Shown: positions 1 to 4,457 of the stretch, one piece after another
Layout: the number at the start of each line of letters is the position of its first letter
How positions within the stretch are numbered: the first letter of the stretch is position 1
From: Paenibacillus polygoni
GTDB lineage: Bacteria; Bacillota; Bacilli; Paenibacillales; Paenibacillaceae
NCBI RefSeq assembly: GCF_030263935.1
Contig: NZ_CP127162.1
Span: forward strand, 758,001 to 822,000
Direction: 5' to 3'
Length of the DNA stretch: 64,000 nucleotides
The notes under the pieces: model-generated
Told to the model about the DNA's origin: nothing
What the model saw: the letters and a program-made list of their open reading frames with translations, nothing else
The model's database searches: none
Program-made: the position numbers and the translations under genes

Positions 1-1769
1 TGCTTCGCTAGTGATTCATATCCACTGCCAAGCGCCGTATATTGTTTTTGGATCTCACCGAGTCCGCTAGAGACTTGTGCTGAGCTCTTTTGTATGGAAG
101 ATAGTCCAGTGCGAATCTCGGAAATCCCCGAAGAAAGTCCGGTTGCTCCGGAAGCACTGTCACTTATACCGCCTCCAAGCTCTTTCACCGCATCTGTCAG
201 CTGCTGATAGCCTGATGTAATCTCTCCCGAACCGGAAACTAGCTGATCTACTTCGGAAAAGTCAGGTGTAGTGAGTCCTGCTTCCATCTGTGAAATTCCA
301 TCTTGGATCTGATCGACCCCGTCCCTAGAAGCTGAGATTCCATCCGTTATAGCTGAGGTCTGGTTATCGGTATACAAATCCGGAATTTCCTCAAACTGCG
401 GCTGCGTTACACTCGATACGCTGTCAACTCCTTCAAGCTGATTAAGGGAGTGGGTAATGGAATCAATTACAGCCAGGGCATCATTGTTATCCAGCCTCTC
501 ATCATTTTGAATGACTACATTCGTAGGCAGCGCCTGACCTTTACTGAAGTTTTCTGCGACAAGGCTGAACCCTTTTGTTGAAGGGTAGGCATTACCGAGT
601 TCTTTCAGCTGATCAAAAGAAAGCGTCTGTTTGCTGAACATGAGCACAGGAACCATGATAATTATAATAAGCGCGGTAGTAATCACCGGATATTTTACTG
701 ATATGGTAGCGAGCTTGGTCCAGAACTTGCTGTCTTTATGGCCGTTATTTTGTTTGGCAGGCCAGAATAGCTTTTCCCCAAGTGTCTTCATAAAGAAGGG
801 GGTCAAGGTATAAATCTGCACAATTAATACAATCGCACCAATGGCAACCACGTTCGCGGATTTGTAAATCCCAAAGTTTGAGAAACTGAGTGCAGCAAAC
901 GCAATAAATACGGTTAATGTACTGTAAAGAATGGTTTTGCCTGCCGTTCGGAACGTAGTGAAAATAGCTTCATCAATCGTTGCACCATGAGCAAGTTCCT
1001 CTTTAAAGCGGTTGAATAAAAGAATGTTGTAGTCGGTACCGATCCCAAACAGAATGAGGACAAGCAGCATCTGCGTTACGCTGGTGATCGGGAAATTCAA
1101 TTTTTCAATAATTTGTGCTGCAATGCCCATGGATACGAGATAGGTAATCCCCACCGTTAGCAGCGAGATAAAGGGTATGAGCAGTGAACGGAACATAATA
1201 ATAAGAACGGCCAGAATGAACACAACGGTCAATAAAGCACTTTTTTCTACACCTGCCGTTGTTGCTTCTAAATAATCGTTCTGTATAAAATCTTCACCGC
1301 TTAGATAATAATCAGTATCTATCTCAGCGAGTTCTTGTTCAAGTTGTTCCTTAATAACGGCAACTTCACGATCTCCTTTATCGAGACTGAAGCTGACCAT
1401 AAGGGTCGTTCCATTCTCGGAGAGAAGAGAGGATTTCGCCTCTGGGGTAGAAAAAGGATCGATCATATCGTGCACACCGAGTTCAGCACTATGATCTCGT
1501 ATGTTCTCTATACCTGCTTCAATCTGAGTCAGATCCGTATCAGACAGTTTATTTTCATTATGAAAAACAATAATATCGCTTGTGCCTTGATCTCCTGTCA
1601 TTTCTTTTAGCAGCTCACTTGCTACTTTGGAAGGACTGTCTTTGGTGAGCGGATCTTGGCCTCTCTCATGCAGAATCGCGTTGACATCTGGCTGAAATAC
1701 AGTGAGTAAGCTTGCGCTAACCAGCCAGATGGCTAGAATAAGCCAGCGCCACTTTAGTATCTTTTGCAT
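1..1769 (-). CDS. MMPL/RND-family exporter (3' end outside window)
   Basis: Reading the minus strand from an ATG at 1769 gives an open frame that runs off the left edge, about 590 residues visible. It begins MQKILKWRWLILAIW, a typical MMPL first membrane segment, followed by a long extracytoplasmic loop and a cluster of membrane helices (about 1250-780) with the MMPL/SSD look. The distal part (about 480-20) has Gly/Ser-rich heptad-like text such as ISDSASGATGLSSGISE, resembling YhgE/Pip-type extracellular segments, as in Bacillus YdgH-like exporters. Proton-driven export of lipids, drugs or peptides is the family role; the substrate is unknown. An AAGGGAG ribosome site precedes the start. A shared operator with the TetR gene upstream suggests repression by that regulator. 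Confidence 0.88.
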   Translation of the reverse strand, partial: MQKILKWRWLILAIWLVSASLLTVFQPDVNAILHERGQDPLTKDSPSKVASELLKEMTGDQGTSDIIVFHNENKLSDTDLTQIEAGIENIRDHSAELGVHDMIDPFSTPEAKSSLLSENGTTLMVSFSLDKGDREVAVIKEQLEQELAEIDTDYYLSGEDFIQNDYLEATTAGVEKSALLTVVFILAVLIIMFRSLLIPFISLLTVGITYLVSMGIAAQIIEKLNFPITSVTQMLLVLILFGIGTDYNILLFNRFKEELAHGATIDEAIFTTFRTAGKTILYSTLTVFIAFAALSFSNFGIYKSANVVAIGAIVLIVQIYTLTPFFMKTLGEKLFWPAKQNNGHKDSKFWTKLATISVKYPVITTALIIIIMVPVLMFSKQTLSFDQLKELGNAYPSTKGFSLVAENFSKGQALPTNVVIQNDERLDNNDALAVIDSITHSLNQLEGVDSVSSVTQPQFEEIPDLYTDNQTSAITDGISASRDGVDQIQDGISQMEAGLTTPDFSEVDQLVSGSGEITSGYQQLTDAVKELGGGISDSASGATGLSSGISEIRTGLSSIQKSSAQVSSGLGEIQKQYTALGSGYESLAK

Positions 1770-1827
1770 TCGAACATTAACTCCCTTGATTATGGAATAG
1801 TGGCATTGCTTGAGGTATAGAACATTA

Positions 1828-1845
1828 GTAAACAGGCGTTCATTA
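1828..1845. promoter_or_regulatory. Putative TetR operator, copy 1 (MMPL promoter)
   Basis: An 18-bp element, GTAAACAGGCGTTCATTA on the plus strand, matches 17 of 18 bases of the reverse complement of the element at 2897-2914 beside the TetR start. It is a loose inverted repeat (GTTTA / TGAAC). It overlaps a minus-strand TATAAT (1842-1847) that can serve as the -10 of the MMPL gene, a good position for repression. The TetR assignment is inference from the shared site. Confidence 0.6.
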
Positions 1846-2013
1846 TAATGCTAAAAAAAGAGATGTGCTTTCTATTAAAGATTAAATCATTTGAGACGCA
1901 CCAATAGATTAGGATTTCTCCCCATCCTTCATTCACTCTGAAGAGGTGAATCCAAAAGATTGGAATAGAGCCCAATTATCCGCTCGGCAGAGGTGGACCT
2001 ATTGGCTTGGAGA

Positions 2014-2065
2014 TACCCCTAAACAATGATCCACTCAGCTGAGATGAACTATTGTTTAGGAGTAC
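2014..2065. repeat. Single hairpin element related to the 49-bp array
   Basis: The arms CCTAAACAAT and ATTGTTTAGG flank a core containing the palindrome CTCAGCTGAG. Size, centre and outer TAC/GTAC ends resemble the units at 2087-2286, but the arm sequence is different and still self-complementary. It is followed by GTACCGCAGTT, like the GTACCGCAATT after the last unit of the main array. A more degenerate relative may lie around 1905-1975. No coding function was found in 1770-2269. Confidence 0.6.
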
Positions 2066-2086
2066 CGCAGTTGGAGAGAAATTCGG

Positions 2087-2286
2087 GTACTTCTAAACCT
2101 TCACTCACTCGTAGAGAAGAGGCTAAGATTTGGAAGTACTCGCAAACCTTCATTCACTCGTAGAGATGAATCTAAGCTTTGCGAGTACTCGCAATTTTTT
2201 TATCACTAATTAAGATGATTAAAAGAATTGCGATTACTCGCAAACCTTCATTCACTCGTAGAGTTGAATCTAAGCTTTGCGAGTAC
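2087..2286. repeat. Tandem array of four 49-bp hairpin units
   Basis: GTAC (once TTAC) recurs at 2087, 2136, 2185, 2234 and 2283, an exact 49-bp period. Each unit is an imperfect inverted repeat of about 53 bp that shares its end with the next unit through a GAGTACTC palindrome. Arms differ between units (GTACTTC..AAA, GTACTCGCAAA, GTACTCGCAATT) but the opposite arm changes to match. The core CATTCACTCGTAGAGATGAA recurs with small changes. The last unit overlaps the 3' end of the TetR gene and encodes its last residues. The role is unknown; it could be an RNA-level barrier or a palindromic repeat element. Confidence 0.8.
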
Positions 2287-2895
2287 CGCAATTAATTTTC
2301 TCCGCAATCCCCACGGAGAACACCTGCAGCAGCTCATCAACAAGATATTTAATAGTTGCTCCATCCCGGTGATCACGGAGAATTAGGCATACCCCTTCAA
2401 TGATGGTGACGGCTAGCATTTGGATAGTTAATTGATCTTCAGGGACCAAGTCCGTTGTTTCCCGAGTAACCTTAAATACCTTCTCAAGAATCTGAATAAC
2501 AATCGCAATAAGATCCTGTTTTGCCGATGCGTAAGCCGAACCTTCACTTAAGGTTAATAAGATTTTGATCTCTGTACTTGAGTCTTTCAGCAGTTCTACA
2601 ATGGTCTCATCCACCATTTTGATATACTCGAATACCTCGTCACTGTGAATGGTGAAGGTATTCTCTATTTCTTCCTTAATTGCAATGGTGTACGAAATAA
2701 ACTGCTCATGTGCACTGCCCATCAGGGCCTGGAATAAATCATCCTTGTTCTTAAAATAGCGATAAATGTTACCGGTTGTTATTCCCGCTGCAGTCGCAAT
2801 TCGTCTCATCGAGGACTGCGCATACCCATATTGTTCAAATTCAGATAGGGCTGCGCTTAGAATATTATTTCGGATTTCTTCTTTTAAGATTTGCA
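2270..2895 (-). CDS. TetR/AcrR-family transcriptional regulator
   Basis: About 208 residues from the chosen ATG at 2895 (MQILKEEIRNN); an upstream in-frame start at 2971 has no family support. The N-terminal helix-turn-helix is clear: ILSAALSEFEQYGYAQSSMR, then RIATAAGITTGNIYRYFKNK, and DLFQAL. The C-terminal ligand domain is not assignable. It lies upstream of the MMPL exporter on the same strand and divergently from the MATE pump; such regulators usually repress exporters and themselves. The 18-bp element just upstream recurs at the MMPL promoter. Oddity: the last codons (NCGTRKA and stop) lie inside the final 49-bp hairpin repeat, so the repeat appears to have replaced or extended the native C-terminus. 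Confidence 0.93.
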
Positions 2896-2896
2896 T

Positions 2897-2914
2897 TAAT
2901 GAACACCTGTTTAC
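2897..2914. promoter_or_regulatory. Putative TetR operator, copy 2 (tetR start)
   Basis: TAATGAACACCTGTTTAC lies 2-19 bases before the TetR ATG and matches 17 of 18 bases of the inverted element at 1828-1845. The position suggests autoregulation. The 167-bp interval to the MATE start may also carry the MATE promoter, so that gene could share the control. Seen directly: the repeat; inferred: the regulator. Confidence 0.6.
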
Positions 2915-3062
2915 TTTTATTGGAATAACGAAAGTATAGTCGAAAAATGGACTTTCTGCAATCATTACCACAAAAAAAGAAATACTTCACGACCCATACT
3001 CGCATAATCATGCTATACTATTGGGCGATGTTGTAAATACACAATGAAAAAGAGATGATCCT

Positions 3063-4457
3063 TTGAGTAATCTAGTTCCTATGTATAGAGAAAAATCTAA
3101 TACATTCTTGAATAAATATTTTACTGGAAAGACGCTTGATTTCAGGCAGATTATCGCGATTATTATCCCGATATTTGTGGATCAGGCTTTTATTATTTTA
3201 ATGGCGCTGCTAAATACAGCGATGATTGCATCATCGGGCGTTGCTGCAGTAAGTGCCGTGAGTATGGTCGATTCGATCAATATTTTTCTCGTTAACGTAT
3301 TTGTTGCGGTAGCCACAGGGGGAACCGTCATTGTTGCTCAGTATAAAGGGAGCCGCAATGAGGAGATGGTATCGAAATCGGCTACACAGGCCATTACGGC
3401 AATAGCGATTCTTTCCATAGTCATATGCGGGCTGGTCATTACTTTCCATAACCCTATCCTGAATTTATTATTTGGTAAGGCGGAGGCAGAAGTTTTTGAG
3501 AATGCTCGAGTCTTTCTTATAGGCAGCTGTATTTCTTATCCGTTTATTGCGATATTTCAGGCCGTAACCGGTGTTCTACGCGGGGTAGCAGAGACGAAGG
3601 CTTGTCTAGGCTTGTCACTCATCATGAACCTTACGTATCTTGGACTGAATATTTTGCTTATTACTATATTCGATATGGGAATTATGGGTCTCGTTATTTC
3701 CATGATTACAGCACGGGTGCTGGGCATGTGTATCTCGATGTATTATCTGATCAAAATAAACCAGACTCTAAAATACAAGATCAAAGAAGCTCTAAAACTG
3801 GATTTTTCAATTCTCAAAAGGATTATGGCGGTAGGCATTCCATTTGCCGCTGAGCAGATGTTCTTTAACGGCGGGAAACTGCTTACTCAGACGTTTATTG
3901 TTCAGCTCGGGACGTTAGCTATTACCGTAAATGCAATCAGCGGCTCCATATCGCTCTTGTTTCAAATTGGGGGCAGCGCGCTTAGTATCGCCATTGTCAC
4001 CGTAGTTGGGCAGTGTATTGGTAATGGCAATATACCGGACGCAAGGAAATTTATTAAGTCGTTCATGGGCTTGTCGACAGCATTTTTTATTTTGGTTGCT
4101 GCTATAATCCTTCCGCTGTTTCCGTTCATCGTGGGATTATTCTCGCCGCCGGCTGAGATTGTACCTGATATCTTTGCACTTACACTGCTGATTGCAATTG
4201 TTCAGCCGATCTTTTGGTCTATTAGTTTTATCCTTCCTTCTGCACTGCGTGCAGCTGGAGATTCAAACTTTACTTCTTTAACTTCGTTATTGTCAATGTG
4301 GGTTCTCCGTGTATTTTTAGGATACTTCCTAGGAATTACGCTAGGACTTGGAATTATGGGGGTATGGATTGCTATGGTCACGGAGTGGAGCATTCGTGGG
4401 GTGATTTTCTGGATTCGTTTCCGCGGGGACAAATGGTATCGTCGTAAACTGATCTAA
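3063..4457 (+). CDS. MATE-family efflux transporter
   Basis: 464 residues, the usual MATE length, with about 12 hydrophobic segments in two related halves (residues about 28-225 and 245-450). Family-like text includes AVSAVSMVDSINIFLVNVF, GGTVIVAQYKG and AITVNAISGSISLL. MATE pumps use Na+ or H+ gradients to expel cationic drugs or metabolites at the cytoplasmic membrane. The start is TTG at 3063 after a weak GAGATGATC; ATG at 3081 is an alternative. It is divergent from the TetR gene 167 bp away. The substrate cannot be told from sequence. Confidence 0.93.
   Translation: MSNLVPMYREKSNTFLNKYFTGKTLDFRQIIAIIIPIFVDQAFIILMALLNTAMIASSGVAAVSAVSMVDSINIFLVNVFVAVATGGTVIVAQYKGSRNEEMVSKSATQAITAIAILSIVICGLVITFHNPILNLLFGKAEAEVFENARVFLIGSCISYPFIAIFQAVTGVLRGVAETKACLGLSLIMNLTYLGLNILLITIFDMGIMGLVISMITARVLGMCISMYYLIKINQTLKYKIKEALKLDFSILKRIMAVGIPFAAEQMFFNGGKLLTQTFIVQLGTLAITVNAISGSISLLFQIGGSALSIAIVTVVGQCIGNGNIPDARKFIKSFMGLSTAFFILVAAIILPLFPFIVGLFSPPAEIVPDIFALTLLIAIVQPIFWSISFILPSALRAAGDSNFTSLTSLLSMWVLRVFLGYFLGITLGLGIMGVWIAMVTEWSIRGVIFWIRFRGDKWYRRKLI

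Follow-up and report, generated by a model that had tools for sequence, protein, structure and literature searches.

Ribosomal RNA precursors contain processing stalks just outside the mature ends, which are cut by RNase III, Mini-III or RNase M5. In enterobacterial operons, REP/PU elements are thought to block 3′-to-5′ exonucleases or to be cut, thereby separating the messages of one operon. The double-hairpin elements of Allomyces mitochondria reportedly consist of two adjacent hairpins that may be mobile together. As described in the main text of PMC3733652, REP/BIME (PU) elements, with their GTAG- and CGTC-tagged superfamilies, are short intergenic palindromes, some of which are clustered or in tandem; they carry an unpaired GTAG or CGTC tag at one end, and mRNA stabilization, termination and supercoiling have been proposed as their roles. 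Neither Paenibacillus nor compensatory appears as a word in the main text of that article.

The 64,000-nucleotide stretch of Paenibacillus polygoni DNA analysed here (the window) belongs to a genome of 4.94 Mb (G000). It contains an array of hairpins in the gap between tetR, encoding a TetR-type regulator (2270-2971, minus strand; profile match to PF00440), and the downstream gene for an MMPL-family transporter (PF03176; 3-1769, minus strand), which continues past the window edge. Judging from the sequence, the real start of tetR is probably the ATG at 2896-2894. A 19-bp sequence preceding MMPL (1827-1845), located outside the array, is an inverted copy of positions 2897-2915 in front of tetR (95% complementary), and these two sites are a likely candidate for a TetR operator pair.

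The initial annotation had reported four tandem 49-bp units sharing their ends, and these are indeed present at 2087-2139, 2136-2188, 2185-2237 and 2234-2286. The array is nevertheless larger and comprises seven hairpin units of 44-53 nt, spanning positions 1918-2286, plus a remnant. All units were assigned to the plus strand. Unit 1 (1918-1968; 43.9 bits with R2, a covariance model built from the family) has partly decayed arms and accounts for an element that had been listed as possible at 1905-1975. It is followed by unit 2 (1969-2012; 40.4 bits) and unit 3 (2013-2065; 39.8 bits, with a weak minus-strand match of 20.6 bits as well). The latter had been taken for a lone element at 2014-2065; it is a hairpin, but it is part of the array. 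The 21 nt between units 3 and 4 (2066-2086; identified by eye) are probably a unit with an internal deletion, as suggested by their GTACCG...CGGGTAC ends. Unit 4 (2087-2139) scores 38.6 bits, and unit 5 (2136-2188) scores 48.1 bits with R2 and is the best match of model R1 (70 bits). Unit 6 (2185-2237) has a divergent core and is absent from the R2 list; its R1 score of 60.8 bits was obtained with a model that had this unit among its building sequences. Unit 7 (2234-2286; 47.2 bits) contains the tetR stop codon, so that the repeat supplies the final codons of tetR. Because the units abut or share ends and there are no unique spacers, a CRISPR array can be ruled out, as had been stated before.

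Read along the plus strand of the window, a unit consists of a variable arm of at least 10 bp, an internal loop with A on the 5′ side and YC on the 3′ side, 4 bp (mostly TNCA/TGNA), one bulged base, 3 bp (CNC/GNG), an apical loop of 3-5 nt and then the second arm; unit 6 departs from this common core. The unpaired A is kept in all 101 non-redundant matches (43 + 35 + 19 + 4), with the qualification that the sequences from which the model was built all have this A. The bulged base is A or G in 38 of the 43 array matches and A in all 19 antisense matches in rRNA regions, and the 35 sense matches in rRNA regions have T (20), A (12) or C (3). Besides repeats within a class, two matches were left out of the non-redundant set: L150:343-387, which is weak (20.5 bits) and lies on the strand opposite to the leader hairpin of L150, and L075:1512-1555 (20.6 bits), which lies on the opposite strand of unit 3 and is the only array match in the sense direction.

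Each unit had been proposed to fold on itself. The units do form hairpins, but their arms also form palindromes across unit junctions, so that pairing between neighbours is also possible, and some neighbouring units are nested in the minimum-energy fold of the entire stretch. Compared with dinucleotide shuffles, the array stretch folds with z-scores of -8.5 (minus strand) and -9.1 (plus strand), values that none of 100 shuffles equalled.

Compensating changes between the arms, another claim of the initial annotation, were borne out. For 19 units from three genomes, the covariation score was 0.274, versus 0.123 ± 0.015 in shuffled alignments and at most 0.127 when the pairing partners were slid. 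In this set, 10 pairs had changed on both sides, which was reached by 92 of 500 shuffles, and there were 27 further pair types, reached by 16 of 500. Addition of two units from genome G066 gave 0.291 (shuffled, 0.135 ± 0.015; slid, at most 0.120), with both-side changes reached by 71 and pair types by 28 of 500 shuffles; for a core alignment of 32 hairpins, the score was 0.491 (shuffled, 0.161 ± 0.016; slid, at most 0.177), and the corresponding numbers of shuffles were 64 and 41. The highest score, 0.579 versus 0.154 ± 0.014 in shuffles and at most 0.147 in slid alignments, was obtained for 48 hairpins outside the building set of R2. Here, 90.9% of the cells were paired, 13 of the 17 pairs had changed on both sides (9 of 500 shuffles) and the number of pair types was reached by 2 of 500 shuffles. 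No training row recurs unchanged among these 48 hairpins; identity to a training row is at least 90% for 10 of them and below 70% for 20. They were taken from 110 R2 matches, the rest being training loci (some under other identifiers), near-identical, weak or unpicked (for instance L198 and L199). Covariation in the hairpin units is strong, also in the hairpins that did not contribute to the model, with the provisos that these were found with R2, a model that rewards pairing, that related copies are not independent, and that the stricter counts (both-side changes and pair types) are weaker than the covariation score.

The tetR-MMPL-MATE locus shares 92-95% DNA identity with that of Paenibacillus sp. 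J45TS6 (L013). The number of units turns over between close relatives: the orthologous loci contain five units in G018 and seven in G005 (R1 matches and inspection by eye), three scoring units plus a half unit recognized by eye in J45TS6, and two units with other arms plus an extra perfect hairpin in G066. No hairpin array was detected by R2 at E ≤ 1 in seven more distant relatives in which tetR adjoins MMPL (L090-L096), and the tetR-MMPL gap is about 80 nt in four same-genus outgroups without the array. By eye, a sequence similar to the candidate TetR operator precedes MMPL in outgroups without the array. The C-terminus of TetR is CGTRKA in the window, CGNRNSFDHLT in G018 and G005, EKMGR in G066, and KKLNR or KKLSR in the four same-genus outgroups. 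Judging by these C-termini, the original end of tetR seems to have given way to the repeat. Unit 3 of G018 (L084 1672-1725) has a left arm that is identical at 14 of 15 positions to the complement of the right arm of unit 3 in the window, and a right arm identical at 14 of 15 positions to unit 5, while its two arms match each other at 9 of 15 positions. It thus reads as a recombinant of two unit types with uncorrected arms, in an ungapped, register-dependent comparison that also gave low self-scores for two other units, W1 and C7.

Copies are not confined to this array. In the window's own genome, R2 gave 24 matches at E ≤ 10, 17 of which are located in four tandem arrays with different arms: six between tetR and MMPL, five between yceD and rpmF, four between a glyoxalase-like gene (just below the Pfam cut-off) and a nitroreductase gene, and two near lepA. 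The remaining matches are five in rRNA operons, one at 458 nt before 16S and one weak stray match (18.5 bits). The yceD-rpmF array (L104 1453-1710; G000 1807202-1807444) has a 50-bp period, with five matches and about six units by eye. Its arms differ from those of the tetR-MMPL array, and its core is the same. This array is also present in G005, G018 and G066 but absent in G009 and G030, and the intergenic gap is 325-364 nt in G000, G005 and G018 versus 54 nt in G009 and G030. The other gaps among the 30 yceD-rpmF loci measure 46-190 nt, and R2 found no match in those 27 loci. In G022 (L267), the gap is 187 nt long, and what occupies it at the same place is apparently another kind of palindromic insertion of about 120 bp.

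The array between the glyoxalase-like and nitroreductase genes (L207 773-971; G000 1116072-1116270) consists of four matches with a 51-bp period and, 51 being a multiple of 3, reads as a mechanically repeating open reading frame on the minus strand. The fourth array, between lepA and a radical-SAM gene (L210 ~550-815; G000 near 3813250), contains about five units of 52-53 bp by eye, of which the two nearest the lepA stop codon score, arm pairing being poor in the rest. The genes on either side of each of the four arrays are co-directional, and the core runs antisense to them and reads toward the end of the preceding gene; this holds for 43 non-redundant array matches, those from relatives among them, with gene strands at the relatives' yceD-rpmF and lepA loci confirmed for this count. 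The arrays are clade-specific, located between co-directional genes and behind an upstream stop codon.

Outside the arrays, the copies that we placed are mostly located in rRNA operons, often at set positions. With a row of L150 dropped, the placement gave 60 rows, which correspond to 58 distinct rRNA-region matches, 36 sense and 22 antisense, once L134 and L214, which are a single place, are counted once. There are preferred positions beside all three rRNA genes: 19 of the 36 sense matches, from 14 genomes, lie 25-29 nt before a mature 5′ end (eight before 5S, six before 23S and five before 16S), and 17 of the 22 antisense matches, also from 14 genomes, lie 59-66 nt after 16S. The other 22 of the 58 matches are at other positions. 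As the distance classes were formed after inspection of the data, and the loci were those with the highest scores and no random sample, these counts describe the positions and do not test them. In all 19 sense copies before 5′ ends, the linker harbours another hairpin, of 7 bp or more, compared with 4.9% of shuffled linkers. This second hairpin has 8 bp, a 3-nt loop and a variable sequence (L195, L186, L218 and other rRNA loci), which differs between 16S, 23S and 5S; array copies are without it.

At the set places the core reads toward the rRNA, with two exceptions in orientation, namely antisense copies 23 nt before 16S (L216 and L217, from G006 and G085). The six rRNA-region copies of the window's own genome, which score low (21.7-28.1 bits), are all off the set distances, for example 131 and 128 nt after 16S and 57, 57 and 106 nt before 5S. 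By eye, one 16S leader of this genome (L209) resembles an empty site when compared with L150, L218 and L137. A few copies are located outside both rRNA operons and arrays (L182, L199, L231 and L233). Paenibacillus polymyxa plasmid records (L279, plasmid NZ_CP010270.1, and H1-H8) match a 16S-23S query. L279 holds 16S, 23S and 5S genes; no core hairpin was found in it by R2 at E ≤ 0.01.

With R2, matches were obtained in 43 of 75 genomes of the genus at E ≤ 0.05, a threshold at which a few may be due to chance, and in 35 at E ≤ 1e-4, the window's own genome included; 32 genomes gave no match. At E ≤ 0.001, matches were found in 12 of 118 genomes across the family (4 of 19 genera) and in 4 of 200 across the class. 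The latter all belong to the same genus as the window, which speaks against many chance matches. Genomes lacking a match may nonetheless hold copies, because stricter filters were applied and the best candidates alone were scored; positions relative to genes refer to the part of the R2 matches that was placed. A search of genome contigs for an exact 15-mer of the core yielded 72 stretches, most of them chance matches judging by the organisms; R2 applied to 28 of these matched solely J45TS6 (L013; three matches), at the same locus. A 25-base pattern with three mismatches allowed was found in 25 of 99 genomes, with some chance matches in coding sequences (the reversed-pattern control gave 3 genomes), and provided the rRNA lead.

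A nucleotide search of plasmids with the array region gave no match. No Rfam family matched the window at its gathering score, and nothing came near threshold at 1750-2400; in the relatives' scanned loci only rRNA, tRNA and one riboswitch pair reached the gathering score, and at E ≤ 1 eight loci gave just two further matches, both sub-threshold. Among the literature matches listed (titles and abstracts, with subscription journals largely outside), the hairpin family is not described. The family is a palindromic repeat of intergenic gaps, shared with rRNA spacers, in which the fold and not the sequence is retained, with variable covarying arms around a fixed asymmetric core.

We tentatively prefer, with somewhat less than even confidence, the interpretation that the array is a tandemly amplified RNA hairpin module from pre-rRNA spacers; placed after stop codons in one clade, the module probably serves there to protect or cut polycistronic mRNA. 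In pre-rRNA, the role of the hairpin would be to label or fold the ends for the nucleases of maturation. In the message, the array would act as a rigid obstacle after tetR, against which 3′-to-5′ exonucleases stop, or, alternatively, would be cut by a double-strand-specific RNase; blocking or cutting would separate the tetR message from the MMPL message, as for REP/PU elements. The position beside rRNA genes in related bacteria suggests a shared RNA-processing or RNA-protecting signal. We infer that the module works as an RNA transcript from three points: the positions tied to RNA ends, the arrays behind stop codons, and an excess of A.C over G.T in antisense copies (15:2 in rRNA regions and 55:27 in arrays), which is expected if the transcript uses G.U. 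Sense copies showed no wobble asymmetry on all columns (22:25). Fisher p-values were 0.043 with all columns, 0.18 without column 12, and 0.007 and 0.004 without arm ends; the copies are not independent and the result depends on the columns kept, so that strand wobble supports an RNA weakly.

A wider scheme, which we consider unlikely, would have the core plus the 8-bp hairpin act throughout the Paenibacillaceae as one structure-specific RNA signal that sets the 5′ ends of 16S, 23S and 5S, with a mirror-image copy behind 16S. One clade would then have recruited the core as tandem mRNA modules behind tetR, yceD, lepA and the glyoxalase-like gene, and the maturation of ribosomes would be connected with the decay of chosen operons through a single putative nuclease or RNA-binding protein.

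The main rival to an RNA module is a miniature mobile DNA palindrome, REP- or MITE-like, whose array would be useless to the cell; we regard this as a real possibility, if a doubtful one. An enzyme of the host or of a transposon would recognize the core as folded single-stranded DNA or as duplex, insertion would take place in rRNA spacers and at gene ends in either orientation, and local multiplication by unequal recombination would follow. Both orientations do occur in rRNA operons, and in the 16S leader five sense and two antisense copies occupy about the same place. Since different orientations give different RNAs, a DNA element fits at least as well, and the two orientation exceptions, together with the own genome's rRNA copies away from the set places, weaken the RNA interpretation and strengthen that of mobile DNA. 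The array-free gaps of relatives at two loci (yceD-rpmF and tetR-MMPL), the apparently empty 16S leader of L209, the variation in unit number between close relatives and the one recombinant unit point the same way. On the other hand, orientation follows position at most places, and the arms are not alike from locus to locus, whereas the ends of mobile palindromes are usually retained. The copy number is low (24 matches, even at E ≤ 10), and the Y1 transposase domain PF01797 was not found in G005, G081, G031, G033, G085 and G068, each of which has 5-20 hairpin matches.

It is improbable that the array is a neutral by-product, in which template switching during replication copies one arm onto the other and tandem slippage builds the array without selection, although the junction-spanning palindromes, the frequent likeness of arms within an array and the fast change in unit number are what such a process would leave. 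The initial annotation had read the matching arms as a sign of selection on the folded form. Arm covariation alone is no proof of this, because template-switch correction of palindromes can also yield matching arms, and because the recombinant unit of G018 has poorly matched arms. Selection on the folded form is best supported by the core, in which the A and C positions and the bulge remain fixed while the flanking pairs vary. Correction should have repaired the core too, yet the A/YC loop and the bulge persist between unrelated arms; nor does a neutral process explain the set distances beside three rRNA genes or a recombinant unit that kept its poorly matched arms.

Very unlikely, in our view, is that the units are intrinsic terminators or attenuators that end tetR transcription: the array lies directly behind the tetR stop codon, and there are three terminator-like sites at 1750-3070 versus 0.7 ± 1.0 in shuffles, but these sites rest on junction palindromes of 5-6 bp and one of the three is on the gene strand. 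That the array provides binding sites for the TetR protein is extremely improbable and was rejected, its location between tetR and a probably TetR-controlled transporter gene notwithstanding, given the better operator pair at 1827-1845/2897-2915, the operator-like sequence before MMPL in array-free outgroups (by eye) and the presence of the core in rRNA operons.

The family illustrates how structure is kept while sequence drifts, beside all three rRNA genes as well as in mRNA gaps. Should the core serve as a recognition site, one could search directly for the nuclease or binding protein responsible for the maturation of rRNA ends in Paenibacillus, and the tandem arrays would be a naturally amplified bait. 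If it is mobile DNA instead, it would represent a family of palindromes in which the fold, not the ends, is retained and which sequence-based repeat searches would miss.

The hairpin units resemble REP/BIME elements in being short palindromes in intergenic gaps that occur in tandem or clustered. They differ from REP in having no unpaired GTAG or CGTC tag at one end; by eye, GTAG is present apically in units 4, 5 and 7 and at junctions of the yceD-rpmF array. In further contrast to REP, the sequence of the arms is not conserved, certain places in rRNA operons are preferred, no single sequence recurs in many dispersed copies, and there is no steady link with a Y1 transposase (PF01797), which is present in 7 of 14 genomes, the window's own included, its loss after spread being possible. 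The combination of the core with the 8-bp hairpin before rRNA genes is reminiscent of the Allomyces double-hairpin elements, but these belong to another domain of life, and the array copies are devoid of the second hairpin. With rRNA processing stalks, the family shares stems just outside the mature rRNA ends; unlike such stalks, it has a single asymmetric core that is found again before each of 16S, 23S and 5S and, in addition, away from rRNA operons.
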